Shown here in pieces: positions 44,044 through 61,365 of a stretch of DNA of 61,507 nt (position 1 is its first letter; the number at the start of each line of letters is the position of its first letter). A model generated the notes under the pieces. That model worked only from the letters and a program-made list of their open reading frames with translations. It made no database searches and was not told the origin of the DNA. The position numbers and the translations under genes are program-made. The stretch is from assembly GCA_035529855.1 (NCBI GenBank), contig DATKVX010000006.1:1-61507 (forward strand). Direction: 5' to 3'. The stretch comes from a bacterium. GTDB lineage: Bacteria; RBG-13-66-14; B26-G2; WVWN01.

Positions 44044-44052
44044 AGCTGACCT

Positions 44053-45912
44053 TTACTGTACGTAACCCAGCGCCCGGAGGTCCGCGGCGTCGGCGAAATC
44101 CGCTGCTCGAGCGGGCTGCATACCTTTGGGCTTAACCGCCTTCTTCCACTTTTCCAACTTCGCGCGTAGCGCTCGGGCCACGTCGTCTTCCGGGAGCCCG
44201 TTGCGCTCGCCCGGGTCTTGCTCGAGGTTGTAGTACTCGCCGGCCGCGTTCATCTTCCAGTGCTCCAGACTTAGCTTCCAAGGCCACAGTACGACGGCGT
44301 CTCGCCGCGGCGGTTGGTAGTCTTTCCGGTCGGTGTAATCGCTGCCTATGAAGATTAGTTTGTTTTGGCCCTCCCGGGGCGTCCCGGCGAGCGGCCGCCC
44401 GGGCATATCCGCCGGCACGTCGACGCCGGCGAGGTGGAGGAGCGTCGGCGTCAGGTCTATGAGGCTGGTGGGGGTGTCGGTCACGGCCGGCCCGCGCCCG
44501 GGTACGGCGACGATTAGCGGTACGCGCGTAACCGTTTCGTAGACCGACTTGCCGTGGCCGTACGTGTAGTGCTCCCAGAACTCCTCGCCGTGGTCGCTGG
44601 TTATAATCACGACCGTGTTGTCGGGGTCCGGTATCGCCTTGAAAACCCGCCCCAGGACGTCGTCCAGAAACGCGCATTCGCCCTCGTAGAGGCGGTGGTA
44701 GGCGTCGCCCCGCTCGCGCAGGTCGGGTTTATGGTCTTTTATGAATTTTTCGTCCGCGGGGTCGTAGTAGCCCGGCGGAGGGTTGTACGGCGCGTGGGGA
44801 TCCATGTAGTGTACCCACAGAAAGAACGGCCTGCGGCGCGGCTTGGCGAGGTACGACCGCGTAAGCCGCGTGATGGTGCGACTCGTCTCGGGCCGGTATC
44901 TTTTACGGGGAAGGTATTTTTGGCGAACCGGCCCGCAACACCAGTTGGTGCTGTAAAAATGTATCGCGCGGAGGCGCGGCCGCCAGTCCCAGTATATAAA
45001 GTAATCGAAGCCGGTGGTAATGGGCGTGTAGTGCTCCAGGACGACGTTGCCCACGACGGCGCCGGTATCGTACCCGGCGCCGCGCAGGTGCGACGCCGCC
45101 GTGCGGTGCAGGTCGCGCGAGGGGCGGGGCCACAACCGCGTCGCGTCCGGATAGTGGCCCGTAAAGCACGCCGCCATCGAGGGGTACGTCCACGGCGCGC
45201 ACGCCCACGCCCGTTCGTAAACGACCGCGTTTTTTTCCGCGTAGGCCGACAGCTTGGGCATGAGGTCGGGCCTGAAGGAGTCCGCTCGCCACGCGTCGAG
45301 TACGATAAACAAGATGTTCGGGCCGCGCGGTACGGGGCGGAGGGCGGGGACGACGAAGTGCGCGGCGACGAGAAGCGCGAAGCCGGCGACGCCGACGACG
45401 CGCAAGACCTTCCCGGCCCGCCGCCACCACCGCTTTCCCGCAGCGCGCCGGGCTAATAGGACGGCGAGGCCTATGCCCAGAACGGCGAACGCGAGCCAAT
45501 ACTCGAAGAACGGCGCCGGCTCGCGGAGGTTTACCGCCAAATCGCCTATTTTAACTTTGCCTTTGCGGAAGAAGCCGATGACGAGCCAACCGACGTTGGA
45601 CGTAATCAACGCGGCCACGGCCGCGGCGGCGCCCCACCGGCGAGCCGTATCCAGCACCCATCTGCCGGATAGGAGCTTTACGACGCCGGATATTACCAGC
45701 GCCGCGACGCCGGCGGCCGCGGAGAGCACGCCTACGGTGAAGCAGTAGAACACCGCGCGCCGGTACGCCGATTCGTAGACGAGGTCGCCCCACCACGTCC
45801 CGGCGGGGTGCCAGAAATAGTTGAAGACGGCCTCCGCCGCGCCCCAGAAGAACGCCAGGGCCAGGACGAATGTCGCCCACGCCAACACACTCTTTAACGT
45901 TTTAATAACCAC
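44053..45912 (-). CDS. Membrane sulfatase-fold protein, Thr-type (paralog 2 of 3)
   Basis: A 619-residue paralog with the same layout: N-terminal membrane helices (about 1-210), then the periplasmic catalytic domain. Motifs: NILFIVLDAWRADSF, CAPWTYPSMAACFTGHYP (TYPSM at the nucleophile site), WVHYMDPHAPYNPPPGYYDP, VVIITSDHGEEFWEHYTYGHGKSVYE, IDLTPTLLHLAGVDVP. Metal ligands are conserved and the nucleophile is Thr. It starts at GTG 45912 with a weak ribosome site, 41 nt below the first paralog. Likely acts on the same class of envelope or secreted polymer as its neighbours. Confidence 0.8.
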   Translation of the reverse strand: MVIKTLKSVLAWATFVLALAFFWGAAEAVFNYFWHPAGTWWGDLVYESAYRRAVFYCFTVGVLSAAAGVAALVISGVVKLLSGRWVLDTARRWGAAAAVAALITSNVGWLVIGFFRKGKVKIGDLAVNLREPAPFFEYWLAFAVLGIGLAVLLARRAAGKRWWRRAGKVLRVVGVAGFALLVAAHFVVPALRPVPRGPNILFIVLDAWRADSFRPDLMPKLSAYAEKNAVVYERAWACAPWTYPSMAACFTGHYPDATRLWPRPSRDLHRTAASHLRGAGYDTGAVVGNVVLEHYTPITTGFDYFIYWDWRPRLRAIHFYSTNWCCGPVRQKYLPRKRYRPETSRTITRLTRSYLAKPRRRPFFLWVHYMDPHAPYNPPPGYYDPADEKFIKDHKPDLRERGDAYHRLYEGECAFLDDVLGRVFKAIPDPDNTVVIITSDHGEEFWEHYTYGHGKSVYETVTRVPLIVAVPGRGPAVTDTPTSLIDLTPTLLHLAGVDVPADMPGRPLAGTPREGQNKLIFIGSDYTDRKDYQPPRRDAVVLWPWKLSLEHWKMNAAGEYYNLEQDPGERNGLPEDDVARALRAKLEKWKKAVKPKGMQPARAADFADAADLRALGYVQ

Positions 45913-45953
45913 GCGGTAAATCTTTTTTCCGTGCCGGCCTGTTGAAATAGTAG

Positions 45954-47807
45954 CTATTGGATATACCCTAGGGCCCGGAGGTCCGGCGCGGCGGCGCCTC
46001 CGTATTCGGGGTACCGACCCGTGCGCCTTACGTTACGCCGCCACACCCGCAACGCCTTGCGGAGGCGCCCCGCAGACTTATCTTCCGGTAGCGGCCTCAG
46101 CTCGCCGGGGTCGGCGGCGAGGTTGTAGTATTCGCCCCGTCGCCCGGGTTTTTGGTGAAACAGGATAAGTTTATAAGGCCAAATGATTACGGCGTCCCGG
46201 CGTTCCGTTATACGGCCGCGGAGCTTAAGGAAACAGCCCCCGATGAATACGGGCCGACGGTCTTTAACGACGTCTCCGTCAGTCGTTAAAAACGGCCGGC
46301 CCTGCATCGTCGGCGGCGGTTCGTAACCGCTGAGGGTGAGGAGCGTGGGCGCGAGGTCCACCAAGCTTACGGGCGTGTCGACCACGGCCGCGGCCTTAGC
46401 CGGTAAAAAGACGAGGAGTGGGACTCGCGTTACCGTTTCGTAGACCGATTTTCCGTGGTAAAAACCGTATTCTTGACTGTGTTCCCAGAACTCCTCGCCG
46501 TGGTCGGCGGTTATTATCGTAATGGTATCGGGCTCCGCGGCAAGGCGCGGGAGGATAGGTGCCAACAGGTCGTCCACGAACCGACATTCCCCCTCGTAGA
46601 GGCGCTTGTTGACGTGCCGTCGCCTTCTCAAGATCGGACGAAAGTCCAAAATATATTTCTCATCGTCCGGTAAGTAATAACCCGGGGGTGGCGTATAGGG
46701 GCCGTGGGGGTCCATATAGTGGACCCATAGAAAATATGGCCGCCGGTGAGGACGCGCCAGGTACGTGCTGAGCATACGGCTGAGGATCCGGCTGTCCTCG
46801 GAGATCCGCTTCCCGTGAAAAAGGCCTCGGACGGCCGAGCCGTACCAATTAGTGTCGTAGAAATGGATCCCGCGGAGGAGAGGCGACCAATCCGAAAAGT
46901 AAAAGTCCTCAAAACCTTCCGTTGTCGGGCTGTCTCGGTTGAGGACGCGGTTCGCGGAGAAGGCCGCGGTCTCGTAGCCGGCCTCGTATAAGATCTGCGC
47001 CAGCGTGGGGTTGCGTTTATCCGAGTCGGCGCGCCGGCGGAACTTGTGCGTGTCGTGGTATTGACCGGTGAACGTCGTCGTCATCGCCGGCAGCGTCCAC
47101 GTGCCGTTGGTCCACGCGCGCTCGAAGTATAGGCTTTTTTCCCGGCTGAACGAGTATAAATTGGGCATCAGCTCCGGCTGCAACGTATCGGCCCGCCAGG
47201 CGTCGAGGACAATGAGTATGATATTGGGGCCGTAGGGCCGCGGCCGCAGCATTTGAGTTGCGTGGTGCGTGACGACCGTCGCGAGAAAAAGCGCCGCGCC
47301 CGCCACCTGGAGGTATCGCGCCGTTATCCTCGCCCAGCGTCTCCTCCCCAACGCGAACGCGAGGGCGACGGCCACTGCCGCCCCCGCGAGCGCGAAGAAC
47401 CCCCAGTACTCGAAAAAAGGCGCCCGTTCCTGTATGTCCAGTTTAAAGAGGCCGACGTCGAGTTCGTACGAATCGATTAAGCCGAGGACCAGCCACCCGG
47501 CGTTAGAAGCTATGATCGCCGCGAGGGCGACCGCGCCGCCCCACCGGCGGCGGGCGGCCTTTACCGGCCGGCGCCGGAGCCGCCGTATTAAGCTCCCGAC
47601 GGCGACGACTACGAGGCCGGCGGCCGCCACGACTACGGCGTAGAAAACCACGCGGTTGTACGTCGAGGGGAGCCAGAGGTCCGTCCGCCACACGCCCTTG
47701 GGCGGCCAGCGGTAGTTGATAAAAGCTTCCGTCGCGCCCCAGAAGAACGCGGCGGCGGCGACGAACGCCGCCCACGATAACAATTTCCTAAGTATTCTGG
47801 GTAACAT
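45954..47807 (-). CDS. Membrane sulfatase-fold protein, Thr-type (paralog 1 of 3)
   Basis: A 617-residue paralog: helices within about 1-205, then NIILIVLDAWRADTL, TNGTWTLPAMTTTFTGQYHD (TLPAM at the nucleophile site), WVHYMDPHGPYTPPPGYYLP and ITIITADHGEEFWEHSQEYGFYHGKSVYE. Also metal-competent and Thr-type. All three copies end in a conserved LRALGYVQ/IQ tail, which suggests a shared structural end. The gene is 73 nt downstream of the phosphodiesterase-like gene start side and may be first of a three-gene unit. Confidence 0.8.
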   Translation of the reverse strand: MLPRILRKLLSWAAFVAAAAFFWGATEAFINYRWPPKGVWRTDLWLPSTYNRVVFYAVVVAAAGLVVVAVGSLIRRLRRRPVKAARRRWGGAVALAAIIASNAGWLVLGLIDSYELDVGLFKLDIQERAPFFEYWGFFALAGAAVAVALAFALGRRRWARITARYLQVAGAALFLATVVTHHATQMLRPRPYGPNIILIVLDAWRADTLQPELMPNLYSFSREKSLYFERAWTNGTWTLPAMTTTFTGQYHDTHKFRRRADSDKRNPTLAQILYEAGYETAAFSANRVLNRDSPTTEGFEDFYFSDWSPLLRGIHFYDTNWYGSAVRGLFHGKRISEDSRILSRMLSTYLARPHRRPYFLWVHYMDPHGPYTPPPGYYLPDDEKYILDFRPILRRRRHVNKRLYEGECRFVDDLLAPILPRLAAEPDTITIITADHGEEFWEHSQEYGFYHGKSVYETVTRVPLLVFLPAKAAAVVDTPVSLVDLAPTLLTLSGYEPPPTMQGRPFLTTDGDVVKDRRPVFIGGCFLKLRGRITERRDAVIIWPYKLILFHQKPGRRGEYYNLAADPGELRPLPEDKSAGRLRKALRVWRRNVRRTGRYPEYGGAAAPDLRALGYIQ

Positions 47808-49280: not shown

Positions 49281-49668
49281 TTATCGTAAGTTTTCGGTGA
49301 CGATTTTTATACAGGCTTTAGCCGTTTTCACAGCTTTCAAAACGTCTTTTCGAGAAGGGAATTCCGCTTTCGGTAAGCCGTTGACGGTATCCGGGTAACG
49401 TAGGGGAACGTAATATTTCGACAGCTTTTTCAGTTCCGCTGCTATGGCCGCGAATTCCCCCGCGCCGGCGAGCCGGGTCAACTCCACATAAGTTATGGGT
49501 TTTTGGGATGGCCTTGCCTTTCGCTAAGATAAACGCTTTTAACGCTTTTTCGGCCGCTTGCTGAGCGTCAATACAGGCGTTTACGTAATATTTTAGACTA
49601 ATCAGGCCTTGAGCCGCGCCGAGGTCCCTTCGCGCGAATTCGAGCCACGCTTTTTCTTCATCTTCCAT
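49281..49668 (-). pseudogene. HEPN domain protein, frameshifted
   Basis: Two frames together spell a HEPN protein of about 128 residues: MEDEEKAWLEFARRDLGAAQGLI, KYYVNACIDAQQAAEKALKAFIL and PKTHNL in one frame, then VELTRLAGAGEFAAIAAELKKLSKYYVPLRYPD in another. A single extra base near 49486-49490 (AACTTATGTGGAG on the minus strand) breaks it. The intact paralog at 50014-50403 shows the expected joining. HEPN proteins paired with MNT nucleotidyltransferases form toxin-antitoxin systems; here the toxin-type partner is probably dead. Its start overlaps the MNT gene by 11 nt. Confidence 0.8.
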
Positions 49669-49999
49669 AAATAACGCGCCCCTTTGCGAGAACTTCCTCC
49701 CGGAAGAACCGCCTTTTCTCGCACAACGCCGCGAACTCCACGGGCGTATAGACAAAAAAATCTATGCCAACGTGGGGGTCAGTTAGCGTTATAACGTCGT
49801 CCAGCCGGTCGAAGAACTTTTTGCGCGTTTTTTTTATAACCACCAAATCAATATCCGACCACTCGCCGATTTCGCCGGTGGCGAGCGAGCCGAAGATGAT
49901 TACCTTCTCCGCGCCGTACTCGTCTATGAGAAGCGGGAGGACGCGGGCGAGCTCCGCCTCCAGCGCGGCCTTCCGTTTTTTGTGTGCGGCGGTAATCAT
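49658..49999 (-). CDS. MNT-type nucleotidyltransferase (antitoxin-like)
   Basis: A 113-residue minimal nucleotidyltransferase. The motif GSLATGEIGEWSDIDLVVI is a complete GSx10DxD active site near residues 37-52, and Asp in VGIDFFVYT may be the third carboxylate. It starts at ATG 49999, with the partner HEPN gene following in the same direction. Known MNT proteins inactivate HEPN toxins by transferring nucleotides. Its paralog at 50375-50734 shares most of the first 55 residues and the C-terminus. Confidence 0.85.
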   Translation of the reverse strand: MITAAHKKRKAALEAELARVLPLLIDEYGAEKVIIFGSLATGEIGEWSDIDLVVIKKTRKKFFDRLDDVITLTDPHVGIDFFVYTPVEFAALCEKRRFFREEVLAKGRVIYGR

Positions 50000-50013
50000 A
50001 GGTAAACGCGCCT

Positions 50014-50403
50014 TCAAGATTTGACGATTGCGATTATAGTTTCGGTGATTTCTTGCGCCCGGGCGAGCGCATTTCGCGCTTCGTTCTCGTCCGAAAACCA
50101 CGATGGCTCGTCGCCCCCGATCAAGTCCGGGTAACGCGTAGGGATATAATACTTATTTAATACGTCGATAGCGTCGCGGTATGACGCGAGCGCGGCCTCT
50201 TCCAATAGTACGAAAAGTTCGGGAAGGTTGTGGGTTTTAGGTACGGTTTTACCGCGATACAAAAGAAGGCCCTTGAGCGCTTTTTCGACCGCTTGTTGCG
50301 GGTGGAAACACGCGTTCGCGTATAGCTCCCCCTCGAGCAACTTTTGGCACGCGCGGAGTTCGCGTTCCGCGAACTCAAACCACGGCTGCCATTCCGGCGT
50401 CAT
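50014..50403 (-). CDS. HEPN domain protein (toxin-like)
   Basis: A 129-residue intact HEPN protein: MTPEWQPWFEFAERELRACQKLL, ANACFHPQQAVEKALKGLLLYRG, KTVPKTHNLPELFVLLEE and KYYIPTRYPDLIGGDE. This is the Pfam HEPN group rather than the HepT/DUF86 group, and the classical RX4HXY signature is not evident. It overlaps the end of the upstream MNT gene by 29 nt, consistent with a coupled toxin-antitoxin pair. It could also be a nucleotide-binding accessory protein, since some HEPN/MNT pairs have other roles. Confidence 0.82.
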   Translation of the reverse strand: MTPEWQPWFEFAERELRACQKLLEGELYANACFHPQQAVEKALKGLLLYRGKTVPKTHNLPELFVLLEEAALASYRDAIDVLNKYYIPTRYPDLIGGDEPSWFSDENEARNALARAQEITETIIAIVKS

Positions 50404-50734
50404 ACACCACCCGCCCTTTCGCGACTACCTCTTCCCGGAAAAACCGGCGCCCCTCGCTCATTCGCTCGAACTCGGCCGGGCTATAAACGACGACGTCTGC
50501 GGCAAGCCGCGGCCTGGTGAGTCTCGCGACGTCGTCGATCCGGTTCATGGATTTCGTCTCCGTCTCTTTTATGATTACTAAGTCCAAGTCCGACCACTCG
50601 CCGACCTCCCCCGTCGCGAGCGAGCCGAAGATGATTACCTTCTCGGCGCCGTACTCGTGGATGAGGAGCGGGAGGATGCGGGCGAGCTCCGCCTCCAGCG
50701 CGGCCTTGCGTTTTTCGTGTACGGCGGTAATCAT
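50375..50734 (-). CDS. MNT-type nucleotidyltransferase (antitoxin-like)
   Basis: A 119-residue nucleotidyltransferase with GSLATGEVGEWSDLDLVII as a full GSx10DxD site. The first 36 residues differ from the paralog at 49658-49999 by only a few positions, while the middle has diverged (DDVARLTRPRLAADVVVYS). The C-terminus runs 6 residues longer. It precedes and overlaps its HEPN partner. The two MNT/HEPN pairs arose by duplication and then drifted apart. Confidence 0.85.
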   Translation of the reverse strand: MITAVHEKRKAALEAELARILPLLIHEYGAEKVIIFGSLATGEVGEWSDLDLVIIKETETKSMNRIDDVARLTRPRLAADVVVYSPAEFERMSEGRRFFREEVVAKGRVVYDAGMAAVV

Positions 50735-50795
50735 AGCGAAGGGCGCCCCTCGAAGCGCCCTCCATAATAACCCACGGCGCGCGGCCGGTCAACGG

Positions 50796-50906
50796 CTACA
50801 ACGACGCGCCGGCCCCCTTCGTCCACGCCGGCGCGGTATCGGGCCGGTTAGAGGCCGGGTCGGCGCGGTCGAGGCCGATTACGGCTAATTTGGGGTCGCT
50901 ATTCAT
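50796..50906 (-). pseudogene. 5' remnant of an alkaline-phosphatase-superfamily gene
   Basis: A 36-codon frame reading MNSDPKLAVIGLDRADPASN and then degenerate sequence to a TAG. The first 17 residues match the start of the gene at 47881-49257 (PPKFAIIGLDCADPV), and DNA similarity covers roughly 45 nt. It overlaps the end of the ion channel gene by 8 nt. It lies on the far side of the two MNT/HEPN pairs from the intact gene, so it looks like a flank carried or left by a duplication or insertion. Confidence 0.65.
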
Positions 50907-51666
50907 CTTCAACTCCGTCAGGTTCCTTGTCGGCGTCGTTCTCGTGCCCGTGGCGCTTTTCCTCGAGGCGCTCCGCTATCAATGTACCCACCAGGCCGCC
51001 GACGAGGACCGCGACGTACAGGACGCCTATGACCGACTCGAATACCGCCAATACCTGGGCGAAGTGCGTGAGCGGCGTGATGTTGCCGTAGCCGAGCGTC
51101 GTTAACGTCGCGAAGCTGAAGAGGACGAAGTCGGAGTAGTCGACGAGGCTGTTAGGATTGGTTTGTTCGCTTATGTGAAAGGACCCGGGTTGGAGCATCT
51201 CGAGCCAGAGGTACAACATCGTGAAGAAAAGGCCGATGAGGATGTACGCGCTTACCGCGCCCGATAGCTCGTCGACCGTAATCCGCCGGTAGCGGCTTAT
51301 CCGCGATAGTACCGCGACGATGGCGAAGCCGTAGAAAGCGGCCCACCCCGGGACAATGACGACTTTCAGCGCCGGGTTTTTAAGGTATAGAATATCAAAC
51401 CACGAAAGGCCCGCGAACAGCGAGAAGGCCGCGGCCACGGGTATGAATTCTTTCTTCTTTCGGCAGACGGCGTAAATCGCGAGCAAGAGCGCCGCCGTCT
51501 GGAATAGGTTGAAGACGCTGATGATGGCTGGTTTGTGGACGAAGAACGGATACGCGATCATAAGGGCGACCAGGACTATAAGCAGCCAGATGAGCCGGCC
51601 CTCGTGCCAGCGCTCGGGGTGGCGGGCTTTCGAAAAAATTCCGGTTTTCCGCGACGTTTTTCCCAT
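50899..51666 (-). CDS. Two-pore-helix type potassium channel
   Basis: A 255-residue membrane protein with several N-terminal helices and a C-terminal pore module: FATLTTLGYGNITPLTHFAQV contains the selectivity filter TLGYG (residues about 190-194), flanked by helices at 136-155 and 203-228. A short charged tail follows (EEKRHGHENDADKEPD). It conducts K+ across the inner membrane by family knowledge. No regulatory RCK domain is seen. The ribosome binding site is weak. Confidence 0.9.
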   Translation of the reverse strand: MGKTSRKTGIFSKARHPERWHEGRLIWLLIVLVALMIAYPFFVHKPAIISVFNLFQTAALLLAIYAVCRKKKEFIPVAAAFSLFAGLSWFDILYLKNPALKVVIVPGWAAFYGFAIVAVLSRISRYRRITVDELSGAVSAYILIGLFFTMLYLWLEMLQPGSFHISEQTNPNSLVDYSDFVLFSFATLTTLGYGNITPLTHFAQVLAVFESVIGVLYVAVLVGGLVGTLIAERLEEKRHGHENDADKEPDGVEDE

Positions 51667-51671
51667 TTCGC

Positions 51672-51824
51672 CTACGTGGCCGCCTTGGTATTTACGAACG
51701 CGACGGTTAAAGGGTTTACTTCGCCGCCTCCAGCAACAACTTCGCTACCTCGGGCCGGGTGAACTCGGGCCGCTTCGGCCGCTTCGATCATATGCCGCAA
51801 CCGGATGCGATCGTCATCGCGCAT
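51672..51824 (-). pseudogene. Truncated hepT remnant
   Basis: ATG 51824 begins MRDDDRIRLRHMIEAAEAA, identical to the first 19 residues of the intact hepT at 52198-52536. The frame then runs into unrelated translation of a copy of the sulfate adenylyltransferase 3' end and stops at 51672. About 289 bp of hepT is missing. The RX4HXY catalytic region is lost, so no toxin can be made from this copy. Confidence 0.85.
51720..51766. repeat. Copy 1 of the sat 3'-end repeat
   Basis: The minus strand reads EFTRPEVAKLLLEAAK then a stop, nearly identical to the last residues of the ATP sulfurylase (EFTRPEIAKLLLEAAKAAD). It lies next to the truncated hepT remnant. Confidence 0.85.
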
Positions 51825-52104
51825 ATTGTTCTACCGCCGCTGCCAGGACCTCGTCCCGGAAGTATCGGCTTAAGTCCCCGGCTGTCCGCAAATCCGCTTT
51901 ACGTCCAATTAATTCGGAAAGTTCCCGCTCCATACCGGCGAGTCTTATAAGACCCGGAACGTGTCCCGGTTCGAACTCAACCAGGAAGTCCACGTCGCTG
52001 TCGGGGCCGAAGTCCTGGGTCAACGCCGAGCCGAAGACCGAAAGGCTCGCGATGTGGTGCGTTCGGCAGAAAGCTGCGATTGGTTCTTGGGGTAATTCTA
52101 TCAT
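51814..52104 (-). CDS. mntA: MntA-type antitoxin nucleotidyltransferase (left copy)
   Basis: A 96-residue minimal nucleotidyltransferase with GSALTQDFGPDSDVDFLVEF, a full GSx10DxD site (Gly25, Ser26, Asp37, Asp39). It differs from the right copy at only three residues (Arg20 to Ser, and Asp-Val-Met to Glu-Val-Leu near residue 86). GGAGGG lies 8 nt before the ATG. In the HepT/MntA (type VII) system this protein adenylylates a Tyr of HepT. Its own HepT partner has been destroyed, so it is an orphan antitoxin that could still act on the intact HepT next door. Confidence 0.88.
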   Translation of the reverse strand: MIELPQEPIAAFCRTHHIASLSVFGSALTQDFGPDSDVDFLVEFEPGHVPGLIRLAGMERELSELIGRKADLRTAGDLSRYFRDEVLAAAVEQYAR

Positions 52105-52125
52105 GACCGTACCCTCCGGAGGCCA

Positions 52126-52190
52126 CGCTTTAATCCGCCGCTTTCGCCGCCTCCAGCAGCAGCTTCGCTATCTCGGGCCTAGTAAATTCC
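52126..52190. repeat. Copy 2 of the sat 3'-end repeat
   Basis: Translates on the minus strand as EFTRPEIAKLLLEAAKAAD and a stop, exactly the last 19 residues of ATP sulfurylase. It is followed directly by the end of hepT (stop at 52198). The DNA stays similar to copy 3 through the upstream mntA start region. Confidence 0.9.
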
Positions 52191-52197
52191 CGCGGTA

Positions 52198-52536
52198 TTA
52201 GCCTTTATTGGCCGCGGCCTTAAGCGCCGTGATGAGCGGCGGGAGTTCTTCTTTTACCGTCCGCCAAACGATATCCAAGTTAACGTCGTGGTAAGCGTGT
52301 ATCAACCAATTCCGCATGCCCACGATATCCGCCCACGGTACGGCCGATAGTTTTTTACGTACGTCCGGCGAGACTTTGTTCGCCGCCTCGCCTAGTACCT
52401 CTAACGCGCGTAAAACGGAGAAAGCGAGCATCTGGTCGGCACCGAAATCGTCTCGTGTTTTACCGGCCGTGAACTTGGTGGCCGCTTCGGCCGCTTCGAT
52501 CATATGCCGCAACCGGATGCGATCGTCATCGCGCAT
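52198..52536 (-). CDS. hepT: HepT-type HEPN toxin (DUF86)
   Basis: A 112-residue HEPN ribonuclease. The catalytic motif RNWLIHAY is a perfect RX4HXY (Arg75, His80, Tyr82), where Tyr is the residue modified by MntA in known systems. Other family marks are RIRLRHMIEAAEAAT and LEVLGEAANKVSPDVR. The ATG overlaps the end of the upstream mntA copy by 11 nt, so toxin translation depends on antitoxin translation. It cleaves RNA when free, by family knowledge. The gene ends only 8 nt from a repeat of the sat 3' end. Confidence 0.9.
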   Translation of the reverse strand: MRDDDRIRLRHMIEAAEAATKFTAGKTRDDFGADQMLAFSVLRALEVLGEAANKVSPDVRKKLSAVPWADIVGMRNWLIHAYHDVNLDIVWRTVKEELPPLITALKAAANKG

Positions 52537-52816
52537 ATTGTTCTACAGCCGCTGCCATGACGTCGTCCCGGAAGTATCGGCTTAAGTCCCCGGCTGTCCG
52601 CAAATCCGCTTTACGTCCAATTAATTCGGAAAGCTCGCGCTCCATACCGGCGAGTCTTATAAGACCCGGAACGTGTCCCGGCTCGAACTCAACCAGGAAG
52701 TCCACGTCGCTGTCGGGGCCGAAGTCCTGGGTCAACGCCGAGCCGAAGACCGAAAGCCTCGCGATGTGGTGCGTTCGGCAGAAAGCTGCGATTGGTTCTT
52801 GGGGTAATTCTATCAT
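52526..52816 (-). CDS. mntA: MntA-type antitoxin nucleotidyltransferase (right copy)
   Basis: A 96-residue protein with the complete GSx10DxD site (Gly25, Ser26, Asp37, Asp39). It is the intact partner of hepT at 52198-52536: a strong GGAGGG site, antitoxin first, toxin second, coupled by an 11-nt overlap. It lies 25 nt downstream of the sat stop codon and may be read through from sat. Family knowledge: it adds AMP units to HepT and silences it. Confidence 0.92.
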   Translation of the reverse strand: MIELPQEPIAAFCRTHHIARLSVFGSALTQDFGPDSDVDFLVEFEPGHVPGLIRLAGMERELSELIGRKADLRTAGDLSRYFRDDVMAAAVEQYAR

Positions 52817-54264: not shown

Positions 54265-56067
54265 ATGTTGACCAAACGGGCTTTGGAATTATGGGCGTCG
54301 ACGGCGTTGGCGCTTATCGCCGCCGGCTGCGTACCCACCCACGACGAGGCCGTCGCCATCATAGACGGCGAGCACGAGATCACGGCCGGCGACCTCGAAT
54401 ATTACTACGAGCGCGGTTTGGCCGTTGGCCAGTGGTCGGGCGAAGAGGACCTGGGGCAGACTTTGCGCGACATCCTGGAGGCCGCTATAGACGGCAGGGT
54501 CCTGGAGCTCGAGGCCGAGCAACGGGGTTACGCCGACGAGCCGGTTATCCAGAAGGACCTCGCCGCGGCGCGGAGCCTGGCGCTCCGCGACTACATGCGG
54601 CGGCGCATCGAAGACGCGGTCGTCGTAACGGACGCCGAGGTTCTGGATTTTTACCAAAAGAGCGGGAAGCGGCGGATGTATTCGTTCGTCGAGGCCGAGG
54701 ACCCCGCCCGGGCGGAGGAAGCGTACCGGGCGCTCGAGGCCGGCCGGCTGTGGGAAGACGTGGTCGAGGAGTATTCCACGTTCCGGGGGTACACCGGCGA
54801 GGGCGGCGCGTGGGACGCACCGGTGGAGTACGCCGGCGACGAAGGGAGCGAAGCGCTGTTCGCGTTGGAGGTCGGCGAGTATACGCCGCCCATCGAGGAT
54901 ACCGGGGGCGTTACGTGGCACATCTACCGCTGCGACAAGGTAGTCCACGGCTCCGGCCTGAGTTTCGACGAGGCCAGGCGCGATATCGAGTACGCCGTCA
55001 AGGCGCGCAAGACGCGTGAACGGTTCGACAGCCTCGCGCGCGGGTGGCGCAAGGCGGCGCCCGTAAAACGCGACGACGAGTTGTGGCGGAAGGTATTCGA
55101 GGCGCCGTTCGCCGAGCTCAGGGCGGAGTACGCCGGCAAGGGCGCGGTCCTCTCGGACGCAGGGGGGGTGCCCGTTTACTTCGACGACGTCCTTTCTACG
55201 GTGGAGAAGTTCATGCTATTGCCGCCCGACGAGGTGGACCGGATGCGCGAGCTCAAGCCGTACCGCTACGAAGCGGTTTGGAACGACGCCCTGTCCCGAT
55301 TCGAGGACGAAGCCCTTCTGGAATACCGGGCGTTGAAGGAGGGTGTCGATAACCTACCGTCCTTCCGCCGGGAGATGGCGGCGCGCCGCGGCGACATGCT
55401 GATAGATATCCTCTACCGAGAGCAGTTCCTATCCCGTGTCCCGGAGCCGTCGCCTGAGGAGGTCGAGGCGTTTTACGAACGGCACAAGGAGGACTTCTAC
55501 ACCCCCGAGCGGGTGGAGGTCTACCTCGTCGCCATGCCCGACCGCGTCGAGCTCGAAGGTTTCTACGAAGAGGTCGAAGCCGGCGCGGACCTCGTCGTCA
55601 CCGGGGAAGCGCGGAACCGCGCGCGCGAAAAAGTGGCGCAAGAGCTTTATGAGCTCCCGCCGCCGGCTCCTCCCGAAGAACGGGAGTGGCTGGGCGTCGT
55701 CGCGATAACGGTGGACCCGGCGCAGGCCAACGCGCCGTCCGACCCGCCGTTTGCGGCCGAGCTCCGGCCCCGGGTGTTTCCGTTCGAGGGGCTCAACGTA
55801 CTCAGCGACGTATTCCGATTGAGCGACGGCCGATGGGCGTTTTACGAGCCGATTTACCGCCAGCCGCCGCTGCGGCGCGGCCTCGACGACCCGGAAGTGG
55901 CGTTTTATTGCGGCAAAGCCGTCTTCGAAGAAACCGTCAAGTCTCCCGAAACGTCCGCGGCGGCGGAGGAGTGGATACGTTCGCTGCGCGCGCGGCACAA
56001 GGTAACCGTCGACGACGCGGCGTTGGCGCGGGTCGCCGCGGCGCTGCGCCGGCGTTCGCGGCCTTAG
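54265..56067 (+). CDS. PpiC/SurA-like peptidyl-prolyl isomerase lipoprotein
   Basis: A 600-residue lipoprotein (lipobox-like IAAGC near residue 19) starting at ATG 54265 with a GGAG site; the open frame starts earlier but lacks a ribosome site there. It has a SurA/PrsA-type N-terminal region (VAIIDGEHEITAGDLEYYYERG), a rotamase-like segment (FVEAEDPARAEEAYRALEAGRLWEDVVEEYST) and a second helical/rotamase-like region (PSPEEVEAFYERHKEDFY, RVEVYLVAMPDR). It is likely an envelope chaperone for exported proteins. A paralog lies at 57437-59233, and both flank genes for secreted repeat proteins. Confidence 0.8.
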   Translation: MLTKRALELWASTALALIAAGCVPTHDEAVAIIDGEHEITAGDLEYYYERGLAVGQWSGEEDLGQTLRDILEAAIDGRVLELEAEQRGYADEPVIQKDLAAARSLALRDYMRRRIEDAVVVTDAEVLDFYQKSGKRRMYSFVEAEDPARAEEAYRALEAGRLWEDVVEEYSTFRGYTGEGGAWDAPVEYAGDEGSEALFALEVGEYTPPIEDTGGVTWHIYRCDKVVHGSGLSFDEARRDIEYAVKARKTRERFDSLARGWRKAAPVKRDDELWRKVFEAPFAELRAEYAGKGAVLSDAGGVPVYFDDVLSTVEKFMLLPPDEVDRMRELKPYRYEAVWNDALSRFEDEALLEYRALKEGVDNLPSFRREMAARRGDMLIDILYREQFLSRVPEPSPEEVEAFYERHKEDFYTPERVEVYLVAMPDRVELEGFYEEVEAGADLVVTGEARNRAREKVAQELYELPPPAPPEEREWLGVVAITVDPAQANAPSDPPFAAELRPRVFPFEGLNVLSDVFRLSDGRWAFYEPIYRQPPLRRGLDDPEVAFYCGKAVFEETVKSPETSAAAEEWIRSLRARHKVTVDDAALARVAAALRRRSRP

Positions 56068-56090
56068 GCCGGAAGGCTTTTACGCAAATG

Positions 56091-56118
56091 AAAAAGGCCC
56101 CGCGGATGCGGGGCTTTT
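56091..56118. terminator. Bidirectional terminator between convergent genes
   Basis: GCCCCGC / GCGGGGC stem (56097-56103 with 56108-56114) with A5 on the left and T5 on the right, between the PpiC gene and the convergent secreted-protein gene ending at 56135. Confidence 0.9.
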
Positions 56119-56134
56119 TACCCGGAAGGCTTTC

Positions 56135-57028
56135 CTAGCGGTAGAGCGACTTCACTTTACCCAGGCTGACGGGGACGACGACGGCGGCGCCGCGGGCTTC
56201 GACGTCGAATTGCGTCGCGTACATGCCGTCGTTGGTATACCAGCAGCCCCATACCGCCGCGCCGTAGACGCCCGGTTTGGAGGAATCGCCGTAGGCGAGG
56301 CCGTTGCCGTTGTTCGCCGGGACGGTCCAGGTCCGGATGAGCAACCCCCCCGGGAACGTCGTCATGCACATCGGTTGCCTGGCCGTCCAAGAGCAAGCTA
56401 CCAGGTACGGGCCTTTCCCGTTGTTACCGCGGTGGGCGTACGCCGCGCCGCCGACGGTAGTTATGACGCCGGGCCAACCGGCGCAGGTCCACCGGCCGGC
56501 TCCCGCGCCCGCGGTCGTATAACGATTGAACTTGCCGACGTCGGAGGAACCGTTGACGTAGTAATAATTCCCGTCCCAAAAGCAGTTCAAGGGGTAGGGC
56601 GACCCTCCGACCGAAAACTTCGTTACGGGCGAACCGCCCGTGGTTCGGAAGACGTAGAGCTTTCGGGCGTCGGCGTCGACCACCGACAGGTATCCGAACC
56701 CGAGGTGCGCCGGGTCCGCGCCGCGGGGTTTCAACGTCCCGTTCAAAGCGAACGAACTTACGCGTGCGCCGCCGGGGGTGAAGCGATAGAGGTAGTCCGT
56801 ACCGGAGGTGTACATAGCGCCGTACACGTACGACGGGTCGCGGTAGACGCCGAGCGCGAACGGTTCGGCAAGCGGCGACATCTTGAACGAGCTGATTACC
56901 GAGCCGATGCCGTCGGCGGGAGGCGCGGCGGCCGAGGGCGTCCCGCCGCCGCTCAACGCCACGGGCGGCCCGGCGTAAACCGCGCTTGCCAGAAACGCGG
57001 TAACGCCTATGTAAACTAATCCCTTCAC
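56135..57028 (-). CDS. Secreted repeat protein with LGKVKSLYR tail (paralog A)
   Basis: A 297-residue exported protein starting at GTG 57028 with an AAGGAG site. Signal peptide MKGLVYIGVTAFLASAVYA, then a repeated beta-rich pattern of about 40-residue units (SVISSFKM..., YLYRFTPGGARVSSFALNG, KLYVFRTTGGSPVTKFSVGG, FNRYTTAGAGAGRWTCAGW, MCMTTFPGGLLIRTWTVP), like a beta-propeller. It ends PVSLGKVKSLYR. About 60% identical to the gene at 60394-61287 and of exactly the same length. Function unknown; a cell-surface or secreted protein is inferred. Confidence 0.75.
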   Translation of the reverse strand: MKGLVYIGVTAFLASAVYAGPPVALSGGGTPSAAAPPADGIGSVISSFKMSPLAEPFALGVYRDPSYVYGAMYTSGTDYLYRFTPGGARVSSFALNGTLKPRGADPAHLGFGYLSVVDADARKLYVFRTTGGSPVTKFSVGGSPYPLNCFWDGNYYYVNGSSDVGKFNRYTTAGAGAGRWTCAGWPGVITTVGGAAYAHRGNNGKGPYLVACSWTARQPMCMTTFPGGLLIRTWTVPANNGNGLAYGDSSKPGVYGAAVWGCWYTNDGMYATQFDVEARGAAVVVPVSLGKVKSLYR

Positions 57029-57122
57029 ACTAAGAACTCCTTTCGGCCGTAATTTTAACGAACTCTCCGTACGTAATAACCTTCGGACTAAGCCGCGCTT
57101 CGTATCGTGCGTCGGCGCCCGT

Positions 57123-57221
57123 TTATTTCGATTCGGTGCCGGCCGCGGCGTCTCCGTTCACGCCGGCAAATGCCCCACCCGTCGCTACTACCGCTAGCGC
57201 TAAGTATTTTAATTTGTTCAT
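57123..57221 (-). CDS. Small exported peptide, 32 residues
   Basis: A short gene with a near-perfect GGAGGG site 3-4 nt upstream of ATG 57221 and a clean stop at 57123. It encodes MNKLKYLALAVVATGGAFAG plus VNGDAAAGTESK, a signal-peptide-like N-terminus with a 12-residue polar tail. The N-terminus resembles those of the secreted repeat proteins nearby (KYLKYAGISVLAASAAFA). It could be a real peptide or the leftover 5' end of a lost family member. It lies 94 nt upstream of paralog A on the same strand. Confidence 0.55.
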   Translation of the reverse strand: MNKLKYLALAVVATGGAFAGVNGDAAAGTESK

Positions 57222-57353
57222 CGTCCCTCCAATTGTTCGAAAAATTTATATCGCCTTAGCGATTGCATTTTATCACGGCCCCGTATTTTTTTAATAAATA
57301 AAAATGCGCCGCACAAAACCGAAGCTGAGTTGTATGTGGTCCCCGGGTAAACC

Positions 57354-57383
57354 TTGATTCGTGAGGAAATTATGTGTTATATT
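57354..57383 (+). promoter_or_regulatory. Promoter of the second PpiC-type gene
   Basis: TTGATT (57354-57359), an 18-nt spacer and TATATT (57378-57383), 53 nt before the GTG at 57437. Confidence 0.65.
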
Positions 57384-57436
57384 AACCTCTGATTTTTTAC
57401 CCGTCGCGACATCCGCGGCCTTCAAGGGGTGAGCTG

Positions 57437-59233
57437 GTGGAAAAATTAAATTTTTGCGTTATTTTCGCGGTGGCGGCGTTTTTGGCGGCCGCCGGGCCTT
57501 GCCTCGCCGTCGTGAACGACGCCGTCGCCACCGTCGACGGCGTACCGGCCGTTACCGTAGCCGACTTGATTTATTTTTACCGAATAAAGGCCGGCGAGAT
57601 GCCCTCTACCGGGAACGACGTCGAAGCGAGGGCGAGGGACATCCTGGAGAAACTGATTACGGCGGAAATTTTGGAGATCGAGGCGGCCGCCCGCGGTTAC
57701 GACCGCGACGCCTCGCTTGCCGCCAACCTCGACGCTTTCCGGAGTTCGGCCCTCCGCGAAAAAATGTGGCGGCGGGCGGAAGCGGGCGTGACGGTTACGG
57801 AAGACGAGGTCGTCGATTTTTATGACAAAAACACTAAATGGCGCATGTATTCTTTCTTCGAATCGGATGAGCCGGAAACCGCGGCCGAGGCCTATGAGGA
57901 GTTGAAAGCCGGCGTACCGTGGGAAGAGGTAGTCCGAAAATATTCGGCCGACGAGTATATCGCGGAGACCGGCGGGGCTTGCGAGATGCCGTTACCGTAT
58001 ACGGGGGATAATGCAAGCCGCGCCGTTTACGACACGCCGGCCGGTTCCTTTACGCCGGTGGTTGAGGACGAGAGCGGTTTGAAGTGGCGCATCTTCCGCG
58101 TCGACAAGGTGGTCCACGGACAGCGGGGTACGCTCGCGGAAAGGGAGGAGGAGATAAGGACCGCGGTCGGAAAGAGGAAGGCCGGAGTCGCGTTCGAGGC
58201 CGGCGCGGCGGAATGGCGCGAGGCCACGCCGGTCAAACGCAATCTCGACGTATTGAGCGCCGTCCGCGGCGGGCCGATGGTGGATGTTCGGGAGGAATAC
58301 TACGGCCGGGGGTTGGCTATATCGCGGTGCGGCGACGTTCCCGTCCTTTTCGACGGGTGGCTCGATTCGACCGAGACGTTGTTGGGGGTGGGCGGCGAGG
58401 CCACCGACCGTTATCGCCGGGAGAACCCTATCTTGTTCGACGGTATACTCTCCAAAACTTTAGAGGACCTCGAGAATTGGGCGCTGGCCGAAAATGAGGC
58501 GTTGCGCCTCGGCCTGGACAAAGACGACGATTTGACGCGCGAGTTGGCGAAGAAGCGCGCCGACTACCTTATATCGGCCCTGTACGAGCGGGACCTGCGG
58601 CCGCGGCTACCGTTCCCCACCGAGGAAGACATAGCGCGTTTTTACGGGGCCCGCGAGGAAGATTTTCAAAAGCCCGAGGTGGCGGAGGCGTACGTCGTTC
58701 TAATGCCGGATGAAGGTAAGCTCCGCGCTTATCACGCCGAGGTTGAGGCCGGCAAAGACCTCGTCGTTTCGGGCGAAATATACAAGAACGAGAAGAGGCG
58801 GGCCGAAACGCTGTTGGAGGAACAACCCCCGGTGCTCCCCCCGGAGAAGGAAGAATTTTTGGGCGTCGTCAAGATCGCGCGGGAGCCGGGGGCACTCGGC
58901 GACGAGGCCGCCGCGCGCGACGCCGAACTCGCGAAAGAGCTCCGGCCCATAGTATTTCAATATAAGCTGGAGGAGCTAAGTCGGGTTTTTCAGCTGAGGG
59001 ACGGCCGCTGGGGTTTCTTTAAGACGATTTATTACCGGCCTTTTGAGCAATTGACGTTGGAAGACCTTCACGTCGCGCGGGCCTGCCGCCGGCGCGTGGA
59101 GGAGGAAATTATTAATAGTCCTCAGGTGGTCGAGGAGACCCGCGCCTGGCTCGAGGAGTTGAAGGCGGGCCACGCCGTATCGGTCGACGACGAGGCGTTC
59201 GAGGCCGCGGTCGCTTATACAAGGAGTCGTTAA
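57437..59233 (+). CDS. PpiC/SurA-like exported peptidyl-prolyl isomerase (paralog)
   Basis: A 598-residue protein with a signal peptide (VEKLNFCVIFAVAAFLAAAGPCLA), GTG start and AAGGGG upstream. It has the same domain order and length as the gene at 54265: AVATVDGVPAVTVADLIYFYRIKAG, DILEKLITAEILEIEAAARGYDRD, FFESDEPETAAEAYEELKAGVPWEEVVRKYSADEY, a second rotamase-like region near residue 395. Unlike its paralog it has no lipobox after processing near AVV, so it is probably soluble in the periplasm. An envelope foldase is inferred; its neighbours on both sides are secreted repeat proteins. Confidence 0.8.
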   Translation: MEKLNFCVIFAVAAFLAAAGPCLAVVNDAVATVDGVPAVTVADLIYFYRIKAGEMPSTGNDVEARARDILEKLITAEILEIEAAARGYDRDASLAANLDAFRSSALREKMWRRAEAGVTVTEDEVVDFYDKNTKWRMYSFFESDEPETAAEAYEELKAGVPWEEVVRKYSADEYIAETGGACEMPLPYTGDNASRAVYDTPAGSFTPVVEDESGLKWRIFRVDKVVHGQRGTLAEREEEIRTAVGKRKAGVAFEAGAAEWREATPVKRNLDVLSAVRGGPMVDVREEYYGRGLAISRCGDVPVLFDGWLDSTETLLGVGGEATDRYRRENPILFDGILSKTLEDLENWALAENEALRLGLDKDDDLTRELAKKRADYLISALYERDLRPRLPFPTEEDIARFYGAREEDFQKPEVAEAYVVLMPDEGKLRAYHAEVEAGKDLVVSGEIYKNEKRRAETLLEEQPPVLPPEKEEFLGVVKIAREPGALGDEAAARDAELAKELRPIVFQYKLEELSRVFQLRDGRWGFFKTIYYRPFEQLTLEDLHVARACRRRVEEEIINSPQVVEETRAWLEELKAGHAVSVDDEAFEAAVAYTRSR

Positions 59234-59279
59234 AACGACTCCGATTTTTCCTACGGCGGCGATAAAGAAAACGGCAAAA

Positions 59280-59306
59280 AAAAGCCCCCGAACGGGGGCT
59301 TTTTCA
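59280..59306. terminator. Bidirectional terminator between convergent genes
   Basis: AGCCCCCG AA CGGGGGCT stem with an A8 run before and T5 after, between the PpiC gene and the convergent gene ending at 59327. Confidence 0.9.
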
Positions 59307-59326
59307 CTAAACTTTTCTCCTGGTTA

Positions 59327-60187
59327 TTACTTGAAGAGGGTCTTGATCGCGCCGAGGCTTTCGGGTGCTATGGTCACCAATCCTTCGATGTCGTATTCGT
59401 AAAGCCTCAAAGTGGGGCTGCGCAGCTCCCATACGACCCAGGCACCATTCACGCTGGACTTGCCACAGTCGCCGCCGCAGCCGTTGGTCTCGGCCCCGCT
59501 CCAGGACGCGATTACGGAACCGGTGGTGGTGCAGATGGCTTCGGTCGTGGCGCCGAAGTTGCTCGCCCAGATGTACGCGCCGCTCTCGCCTTTGGCGGCT
59601 TTCGTATAACCCAAAGCGCCGACGTATGTACCCATGCCGCCGATCACGATAGTGCCCGTAAGGGACCCGACGGTGGAGTATTTGTACGCGCTCGTCCTCA
59701 TGGAATAACTGTTCGCGTAGTAGCAACTGGCGTCCGGGTCATACGCGAGGTTCATCGGCCACGAACCCATCGACGAAGTATTGAACGAGCCTGCCACGGA
59801 GCCGGTCGAGTGGTTCATAAACGCGACCGTGTACGGCGAGTTGGCTTTGAGTATGGCGTAGTAGCCGGTGCCGAGGTGGCAGCGGCTCGAGTCGCGCCAT
59901 CCGCTTCCCAAGGAGATGTTGTGGCTCCGGATCAGGCTGCCGGCCGTGGTGCAGACGTACTGCGGGTTGTAGTACGTGTTGACGATGACGTACCCGCCGG
60001 TCTCCAAACACCCGCGGCCGTTAACGCCGGCCGGCGTAGTCCACGATTGGATGATCGAGCCCATAGCGTCGTTGCTCGTGATGGGGCCGGGTGCACTCCC
60101 CGGGATGCCCGCGGTATCTTCACTTACGGCGCCGAACGCCGCGCTCGCGACCAGCGCCGCAAGGCCTACGTATACTAATCTCCTCAT
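59327..60187 (-). CDS. Secreted repeat protein with LGAIKTLFK tail (paralog B)
   Basis: A 286-residue exported protein. AAAGGAG precedes the ATG at 60187 and a signal peptide follows (MRRLVYVGLAALVASAAFG). It consists of blade-like repeats, each with a TGS(V/L)I-x-SW or similar core: MGSIIQSWTTPAGVNG, TTAGSLIRSHNISLG, STGSVAGSFNTSSMG, TVGSLTGTIVIGG, TTTGSVIASWSGAE. It ends ESLGAIKTLFK. Cysteines near CGGDCGK may form a disulfide. It shares design and tail with paralogs A and C but is more distant in sequence. Function unknown. Confidence 0.75.
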   Translation of the reverse strand: MRRLVYVGLAALVASAAFGAVSEDTAGIPGSAPGPITSNDAMGSIIQSWTTPAGVNGRGCLETGGYVIVNTYYNPQYVCTTAGSLIRSHNISLGSGWRDSSRCHLGTGYYAILKANSPYTVAFMNHSTGSVAGSFNTSSMGSWPMNLAYDPDASCYYANSYSMRTSAYKYSTVGSLTGTIVIGGMGTYVGALGYTKAAKGESGAYIWASNFGATTEAICTTTGSVIASWSGAETNGCGGDCGKSSVNGAWVVWELRSPTLRLYEYDIEGLVTIAPESLGAIKTLFK

Positions 60188-60237
60188 TACTAATCTCCTT
60201 TCTCCTACCGTTTTAAATATTGTCCTTCTATAGCTAA

Positions 60238-60266
60238 ATACTAACCGTAAAGACTTCCCTTGTCAA
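60238..60266 (-). promoter_or_regulatory. Promoter of paralog B
   Basis: On the minus strand, a perfect TTGACA (60266-60261), a 17-nt spacer and TAGTAT (60243-60238), about 50 nt before the ATG at 60187. Confidence 0.85.
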
Positions 60267-60393
60267 GGAAAAAAATCGTGGGCCTTTTCGGGGACGGGGC
60301 TAACCGCGGGTTATCCGTTACCGTTTCCGGAGCGGCCGTACGACGTAAACGCGTCGCCGGCTCGAGTAACCGCCGCGGTTACGCGCGGCCCCT

Positions 60394-61287
60394 TCAGCGA
60401 TATAGCGATTTAATCCTACCGATACTCGCCGGCGCGACCGCGGGACGGGAGCGGGCGGCGACGTCGAACTCGAGCGCGTACTGCGACGAGCCCGTAAACC
60501 AGGCCGCCCATACCGCGTCGCCGTAGGCGGCGGGCAGGGAGGATTTGCCGTAGGCCAGGCCGTTGCCGTTCTCGAGCGGCGGCGTCCAGGTCCGCACCAG
60601 CGAGCCGCCGGGGAACGTCGTCATGCACATCGGCTCGCCGCCCAGCCAGGAACAGGCGACGAAGTACGGCCCGGGGGCGTTGTTGCCGTGCTCGGCGTGG
60701 GCGGCGCCGCCGCAGTACGTCATGCCTTCGGGCCAACCGACGCAACTCCACGTGCCGGCGGCGGCGCCCGTCTCGCCGTAGCGAGCGAATTCGCCGAGGT
60801 CGGACGGGCCGTTTACGTAATAATAGCTGCCGTCCCAGAAGCAGTTGAGCGGGAACGGCTTGCCCGCCACCGGAAAGGACGCCACCGCCGGGCCGCCCGT
60901 GACGCGGGATATAAATAGGTGTCGCTTCGTCGCGTCCACGAACGCCAAGTATCCGGCGCCGATGTGGGCGGGGCACGCGTCGCGCGGCGTCGACGTCCCG
61001 TTTAAGACGTACGAGCTTACGCGGGCGCCGGCGGCCGTGAAGCGGTAGAGGTAGTTTTGGCTCGAGCCGTGTATCAGGCCGTAGACGTACGACGGGTCGC
61101 GATAAATCCCGAGGGCGTACGGCTTCGCGACGCCCGTCATCCGAAACGAGCTGATGACGGCGCCGAAGCCGTCGGCGGCCGGCGCGGCGCCGTGAGTCCC
61201 GCGGCCCGCCGTCACCGCGTCCGGCGCTACCGCGAACGCGGCGCTCGCCGCCAAAACGCTAATACCGGCGTATTTTAAGTATTTTAT
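60394..61287 (-). CDS. Secreted repeat protein with IGRIKSLYR tail, probable ATA start (paralog C)
   Basis: The closest relative of paralog A (about 60% identity) and also 297 residues when read from an ATA at 61287: the product then begins IKYLKYAGISVLAASAAFA, a proper signal peptide. An AGGAGA site sits 7-8 nt before this ATA. The longer frame starting at 61365 is ruled out because that codon lies in the -35 box of the promoter and no ATG, GTG or TTG is in frame between the start of transcription and 61287. Beta-rich repeats (YLYRFTAAGARVSSYVLNG and others) and the end SIGRIKSLYR match paralog A. Confidence 0.75.
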   Translation of the reverse strand: MKYLKYAGISVLAASAAFAVAPDAVTAGRGTHGAAPAADGFGAVISSFRMTGVAKPYALGIYRDPSYVYGLIHGSSQNYLYRFTAAGARVSSYVLNGTSTPRDACPAHIGAGYLAFVDATKRHLFISRVTGGPAVASFPVAGKPFPLNCFWDGSYYYVNGPSDLGEFARYGETGAAAGTWSCVGWPEGMTYCGGAAHAEHGNNAPGPYFVACSWLGGEPMCMTTFPGGSLVRTWTPPLENGNGLAYGKSSLPAAYGDAVWAAWFTGSSQYALEFDVAARSRPAVAPASIGRIKSLYR

Positions 61288-61336: not shown

Positions 61337-61365
61337 ATTCTAAACGCGGAAGCGGCCGTTGTCAA
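61337..61365 (-). promoter_or_regulatory. Promoter of paralog C
   Basis: On the minus strand, a perfect TTGACA (61365-61360), a 17-nt spacer and TAGAAT (61342-61337), giving a leader of about 40 nt to the putative ATA start. Confidence 0.85.

Follow-up and report, generated by a model that had tools for sequence, protein, structure and literature searches.

As judged from sequences and predicted structures, the C-terminal tail shared by three exported proteins in the window (the whole stretch of 61,507 nucleotides analyzed here) is a linear peptide that is conserved among Sec-exported proteins, and not the last blade of a propeller. Very probably, this peptide serves as a sorting-type signal in the general sense, because it is conserved, predicted to be disordered, strictly terminal and found on unrelated exported bodies. 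It reads approximately S-L-G-R-V-K-A-L-F-R and looks like a previously undescribed address label for the placement of secreted proteins. The tail marks 77–115 proteins per genome, a large share of the exported proteome in little-known phyla, and lets such proteins be recognized from sequence alone.

All three tail genes in the window are on the minus strand. Tail gene 1 (56135–57028) encodes a signal peptide, a beta-propeller body and a tail of residues 284–297 (56138–56179) ending in SLGKVKSLYR. Tail gene 2 (59327–60187, tail at 59330–59365, ending in SLGAIKTLFK) encodes a protein with 26% identity to protein 1, and tail gene 3 (60394–61287, tail at 60397–60432, ending in SIGRIKSLYR) one with 59%, which agrees with the claim of an earlier note on this DNA that a common tail is carried by variable exported bodies. 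In the ORF translations, the extended ends are VSLGKVKSLYR, ESLGAIKTLFK and ASIGRIKSLYR. The two large PpiC-type proteins named in the same note were also recovered as plus-strand ORFs of PpiC/parvulin-type periplasmic proteins, one convergent with tail gene 1 (54265–56067; Rotamase_2 PF13145, E = 9e-21) and the other with tail gene 2 (57437–59233; PF13145, E = 1e-9; PF00639, E = 1e-4). They share 40% identity, and the sequence ALIAAGC makes it possible that the first is a lipoprotein. The claim that each gene has its own strong promoter holds for tail genes 2 and 3, which have near-consensus promoter-like sites (TTGACA-17-TAGTAT at 60238–60266 and TTGACA-17-TAGAAT at 61337–61365, both on the minus strand), but not for tail gene 1, whose promoter-like site (57294) is weak. 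Promoter-like sites are in excess, with 9 found vs 1.8 expected.

Tail gene 3 has an apparent ATA start (61285–61287) with AGGAG 8 nt upstream. We took this ATA as the probable start because the listed TTG start falls within the −35 box and because ATG occupies this place in the relative G006; the ATA seems to be a rare start codon, a mutation or an assembly error. Elsewhere in the window, three sulfatase-family genes follow one another on the minus strand (42151–47807), and small nucleotidyltransferase-like ORFs are repeatedly paired with HEPN-like ORFs (49658–52816). Two of the nucleotidyltransferase-like ORFs (51814–52104 and 52526–52816) are almost identical, and the putative pairs are likely duplicated modules of the MNT/HEPN toxin-antitoxin type.

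The genome of the window, a Coatesbacteria-type MAG of 2.6 Mb in 135 contigs (97% complete), was searched at the DNA level for sequences encoding G-x-[VI]-K-x-L-[FY]-[RK-like]-stop, and the reversed pattern was used as a control. The search returned 77 matches vs 0 for the control, a frequency far above chance. Over 390 kb of this genome, a stop codon comes directly after the peptide in 76 cases, and a codon with A, C or G as its first base in none. The variants GKVKAIYR and GKVKAMYR are also present, so the count of 77 misses some tails; conversely, about a dozen of the matches are in short, frameshifted or non-genic frames, and the count therefore somewhat exceeds the number of intact genes. 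The consensus of the C-terminal ~14 residues in the phylum of the window is [VA]-x-P-[AST]-S-[LVF]-G-[RK]-[VI]-K-[AS]-L-[FY]-[RK]-COOH, in which G, [VI], K, L, [FY] and the final basic-type residue are fixed by the search pattern and are not independent conservation. Residues unfixed by the pattern are also conserved (P-12 in 91%, S-10 in 97%, V-14 in 78% and A-4 in 86%), and residues upstream of about −17 are far less constrained. The codons show synonymous variation along the tail, which places the selection on the peptide.

Many NHL tail genes (L055, L064, L040 and L067) have a palindromic repeat (GGGGCGACCGGC..GTCGCCCC, in many cases with AAGGGGCTTAAGCCCCTT) immediately after the stop codon. 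Tail DNA together with this repeat can also be found in non-genic places, for example right behind glycosyltransferase-like genes, as if the two had been copied as one unit.

In the AlphaFold model of protein 1, the propeller occupies residues ~40–283 (mean pLDDT 84.6, most of the body above 85), and the last 14 residues have pLDDT below 50. The tail columns nevertheless account for most invariant positions in the protein 1 alignment, with P286, G290, K293 and L295 invariant in 52 homologues. Sequence searches with Pfam gave no match for the three window tail proteins, and a Foldseek search of the PDB with the protein 1 model matched glutaminyl cyclase (3mbr, E = 3e-9) and NHL domains (E ~1e-8). 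A second family (L065), modeled with an unrelated beta-sandwich fold and having weak matches in the PDB, also ends in 15 residues with pLDDT below 50. The earlier note had held that a tail forming part of the last blade of one family would speak against a signal; that placement is rejected, since the tail is predicted to be disordered beyond the folded body in two unrelated folds and is found on many other bodies.

Signal peptides, called by a hydrophobicity heuristic, are present on 48 tail ORFs of the genome of the window, in addition to those read through TGA. Inspection of the tail ORFs with the same heuristic revealed no convincing cytoplasmic protein with the tail. An iterative HMM linked all propeller types partly via the tail itself, and because of this drift the bodies were counted after removal of both the signal peptide and the tail. 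The 197 tail proteins with a signal peptide then fall into 28 body clusters, so that the genome-wide check suggested in the earlier note, a tail on many unrelated bodies, came out positive. Propellers carry most of the copies (136 of the 197 proteins are in one linked cluster). Pfam domains on the bodies include NHL, PD40, CBM96, plastocyanin-type cupredoxin, InhA-like MAM and Temptin_C, and many bodies have no Pfam match. Tail proteins are small on the whole, with a median of 262 aa in the genome of the window.

The tail is also found outside this genome. Its relatives include Candidatus Coatesbacteria bin961, bin3 and CSMAG_1259, as well as two MAGs labelled Zixiibacteriota with tail counts that agree with those of the same-genus genomes. 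Three congeners have ~105–115 matches each (control 0–1), and the numbers elsewhere are 12 in the same order, 10–11 in the same class and 0–6 in the outer family. Tails also occur in a second phylum, with 18 matches in a Krumholzibacteriia MAG and 25 in a further MAG (control 0). Across 78 genomes of this second phylum (Krumholzibacteriia), we found 666 matches, with 71 genomes positive and 39 having at least 5, vs a control of ~1 match per five genomes. The consensus there is V-x-x-E-x-x-S-[FW]-G-[SAGT]-[VI]-K-[AS]-L-[FY]-R, with E-13 in 26 and S/T-10 in 30 of the 32 sampled tail proteins, 27 of which have a signal peptide by the heuristic. A set of 27 tail proteins from the second phylum forms 15 body clusters, and one weak body match to Coatesbacteria was seen. 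The suggestion in the earlier note of a sorting or anchoring signal is thus supported, in that the same tail is carried by many unrelated exported bodies in two phyla and lies outside the last blade; whether it would sort or anchor is a separate matter.

Some tail genes have an in-frame TGA after a first part that bears the signal peptide (L053 at G000:C82, L072, L074, L076, L087, L100, L120, L128, L131 and L147). In-frame stops of this kind are 18 TGA vs 1 TAA, and families show recurrent TGA contexts, namely PFxGC-U, CPG-U-GGG (beta-helix-like proteins) and U-x-x-C (thioredoxin-like proteins). A tRNA-Sec gene is found at G000:C31:3349-3442 (66.7 bits, above the cut-off), and a folding analysis for a bSECIS hairpin after the TGA gave no signal over the control (mean z −0.82 vs −0.90). 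By their sequences, several of these tail genes look like secreted selenoproteins, and a mutation or an error may account for the in-frame stops of L153, L177 and L183.

We then scored type IX secretion system (T9SS) components, namely SprA, C25 (PorU-type) peptidases, the PorV family and type A CTDs, in 16 genomes. SprA-family proteins are present in all 16, with 13 above the curated cut-off, and the SprA of the genome of the window is truncated by a contig end. C25 peptidases and PorV-family proteins (6–14 copies) are likewise present in every genome, and type A CTD matches range from 24 to 120 per genome. PorV-family copy number showed no correlation with the number of tails. Type A CTD-like genes (L270:10556-12130 and L268) are found in the neighborhood of SprA in G005 and next to a cluster of tail genes in G000:C46. 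To judge from their gene content, these genomes thus very likely have a T9SS route that serves ordinary CTD cargo. The link between the tail and T9SS is one of co-occurrence, because all tested tail-bearing genomes also have SprA. No tail match was found in two genomes that do have SprA and type A CTDs, G013 and G007 (the latter 70% complete).

Taken as a whole, the best explanation is a linear tail sorting signal for outer-membrane placement with a T9SS-type translocon as its most likely reader, to which we give an even chance; the narrower proposal that T9SS reads the tail is more tentative and falls somewhat short of that. The Sec signal peptide seen in the sequences would bring the protein to the periplasm, where the disordered tail behind the folded or folding body may be recognized in the envelope, leading to outer-membrane export or surface placement. 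The most likely reader would be SprA with a PorV-family carrier, and the tail would then be a CTD-free miniature T9SS signal, mostly for small proteins. Such a miniature signal is credible because the CTD ends of P. gingivalis are essential and a lysine near the end is almost invariant. Truncation or replacement of the CTD end, whose last strand has a conserved lysine, blocks export, and the final residues are indispensable (PMC11285876). A deletion series in P. gingivalis showed that the final 22 residues of one CTD are needed for surface display (PMC3120885), and CTD structures show a near-invariant lysine close to the end (PMC10994853).

Alternatively, a dedicated receptor or enzyme independent of T9SS might read the tail for sorting or anchoring. 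This is possible but rather doubtful, and the same holds for an unrecognized phylum-spanning sorting pathway that would depend on neither T9SS nor exosortases and would use a receptor of its own to read the peptide S-[LFW]-G-x-[VI]-K-x-L-[FY]-[RK]. Genomes of one phylum have anywhere from 0 to 115 tails at constant T9SS parts, and the tail has neither significant similarity to CTD ends nor the CTD fold, all of which would suit a separate reader; but no candidate receptor was found, and type A CTD cargo points to a C-terminal signal route already operating in these cells.

The tail could also be a docking peptide instead of an export signal, holding the mature protein to a periplasmic or surface partner such as an outer-membrane protein, S-layer-like material or a PpiC/PDZ quality-control protein. 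Peptide-binding pockets would accommodate a C-terminal peptide that is short, disordered and fixed at its end, and PpiC genes adjoin some tail genes. Four full-length members of the window PpiC family are present in its genome, three of which have a convergent tail gene nearby (C6 twice and C7, with gaps of ~70–120 bp). Counting relatives, which are not independent, a tail gene, in most cases convergent, lies no more than 1.5 kb from ~7 of 14 PpiC loci. The chance expectation is ~10% (an estimate from ~1 tail gene per 31 kb), so that for this propeller subfamily the association is probably real. The dedicated foldases proposed in the earlier note are thus plausible for the window propellers, but do not extend to tail genes at large, most of which have no PpiC neighbor. 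With ~4 full-length PpiC paralogues vs 77 tails, PpiC proteins are too few to be dedicated partners of all tails, and the small soluble redox and sugar-binding bodies equally suit release or display; docking is therefore improbable. As to the sorting signal, the SurA/PpiC-like foldases beside some propeller genes might perhaps keep propellers transport-competent; the F. johnsoniae translocon includes a PPI subunit, which is a parallel only.

That the tail is merely a terminal element of a single propeller family which duplication and repeat-mediated copying of DNA have spread would fit the large linked propeller cluster and the tail DNA copied with its downstream palindromic repeat into non-genic places, but it is very improbable, and refuted as a full account, given that cupredoxin, CBM96, MAM and Temptin_C bodies are among 27 further body clusters, and given the independent bodies in the second phylum, the tail beyond the folded body and the synonymous codon variation.

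No NCBIfam or Pfam model matches the tail, and no description of it was found in the open literature, subscription literature being outside the scope of the search; open articles on T9SS in Coatesbacteria and Krumholzibacteria likewise yielded nothing on the tail. Like PEP-CTERM/exosortase and related CTERM signals, whose NCBIfam tail models also gave no match, the tail is a brief label at the C-terminus of many different exported proteins. PEP-CTERM, however, combines a transmembrane helix, a PEP-type motif and a basic cluster, whereas the tail has neither helix nor motif, its basic residue follows an aromatic one at the very end, and the listed C-termini have no hydrophobic stretch ahead of the tail. 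NHL tail proteins (L055:8219-9184) distantly resemble cyanobacterial ScyF (NF035926, 211 bits, below the cut-off), which has an NHL-type body but a PEP-CTERM anchor in place of the tail. The BAM beta-signal of outer-membrane barrels also has an aromatic residue near the C-terminus, but its proteins are barrels ending in the aromatic, as do the SprA-like and PorV-like proteins of the same genome, which end in F; the aromatic of the tail is at −2, followed by R/K, and the bodies appear to be soluble propellers or sandwiches. A further likeness is to the T9SS CTDs, both type A (TIGR04183 / PF18962) and types B/C, which also combine a signal peptide with a C-terminal signal on unrelated passengers, have a conserved Lys near the C-terminus and commonly a basic last residue (CTD proteins in these genomes have ends such as TKKMVVVK), and whose secretion parts occur in the same genomes. 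The tail shares the Lys and the basic end with the last CTD strand, but 23% of column permutations reached the observed end-aligned score, and homology to CTD ends is thus unsupported. None of the tail proteins scanned with NCBIfam and Pfam matched a TIGR04183-type CTD, and because of this failed domain test the tail proteins are not classed as T9SS cargo. A CTD is an Ig-like beta-sandwich of ~70–100 residues, whereas the tail consists of ~14 residues, predicted to be disordered, with the consensus S-x-G-x-[VI]-K-x-L-[FY]-R. If T9SS reads the tail, the accepted requirement of a folded 70–100-residue CTD must be relaxed; if it does not, there is a new sorting machine to be found.
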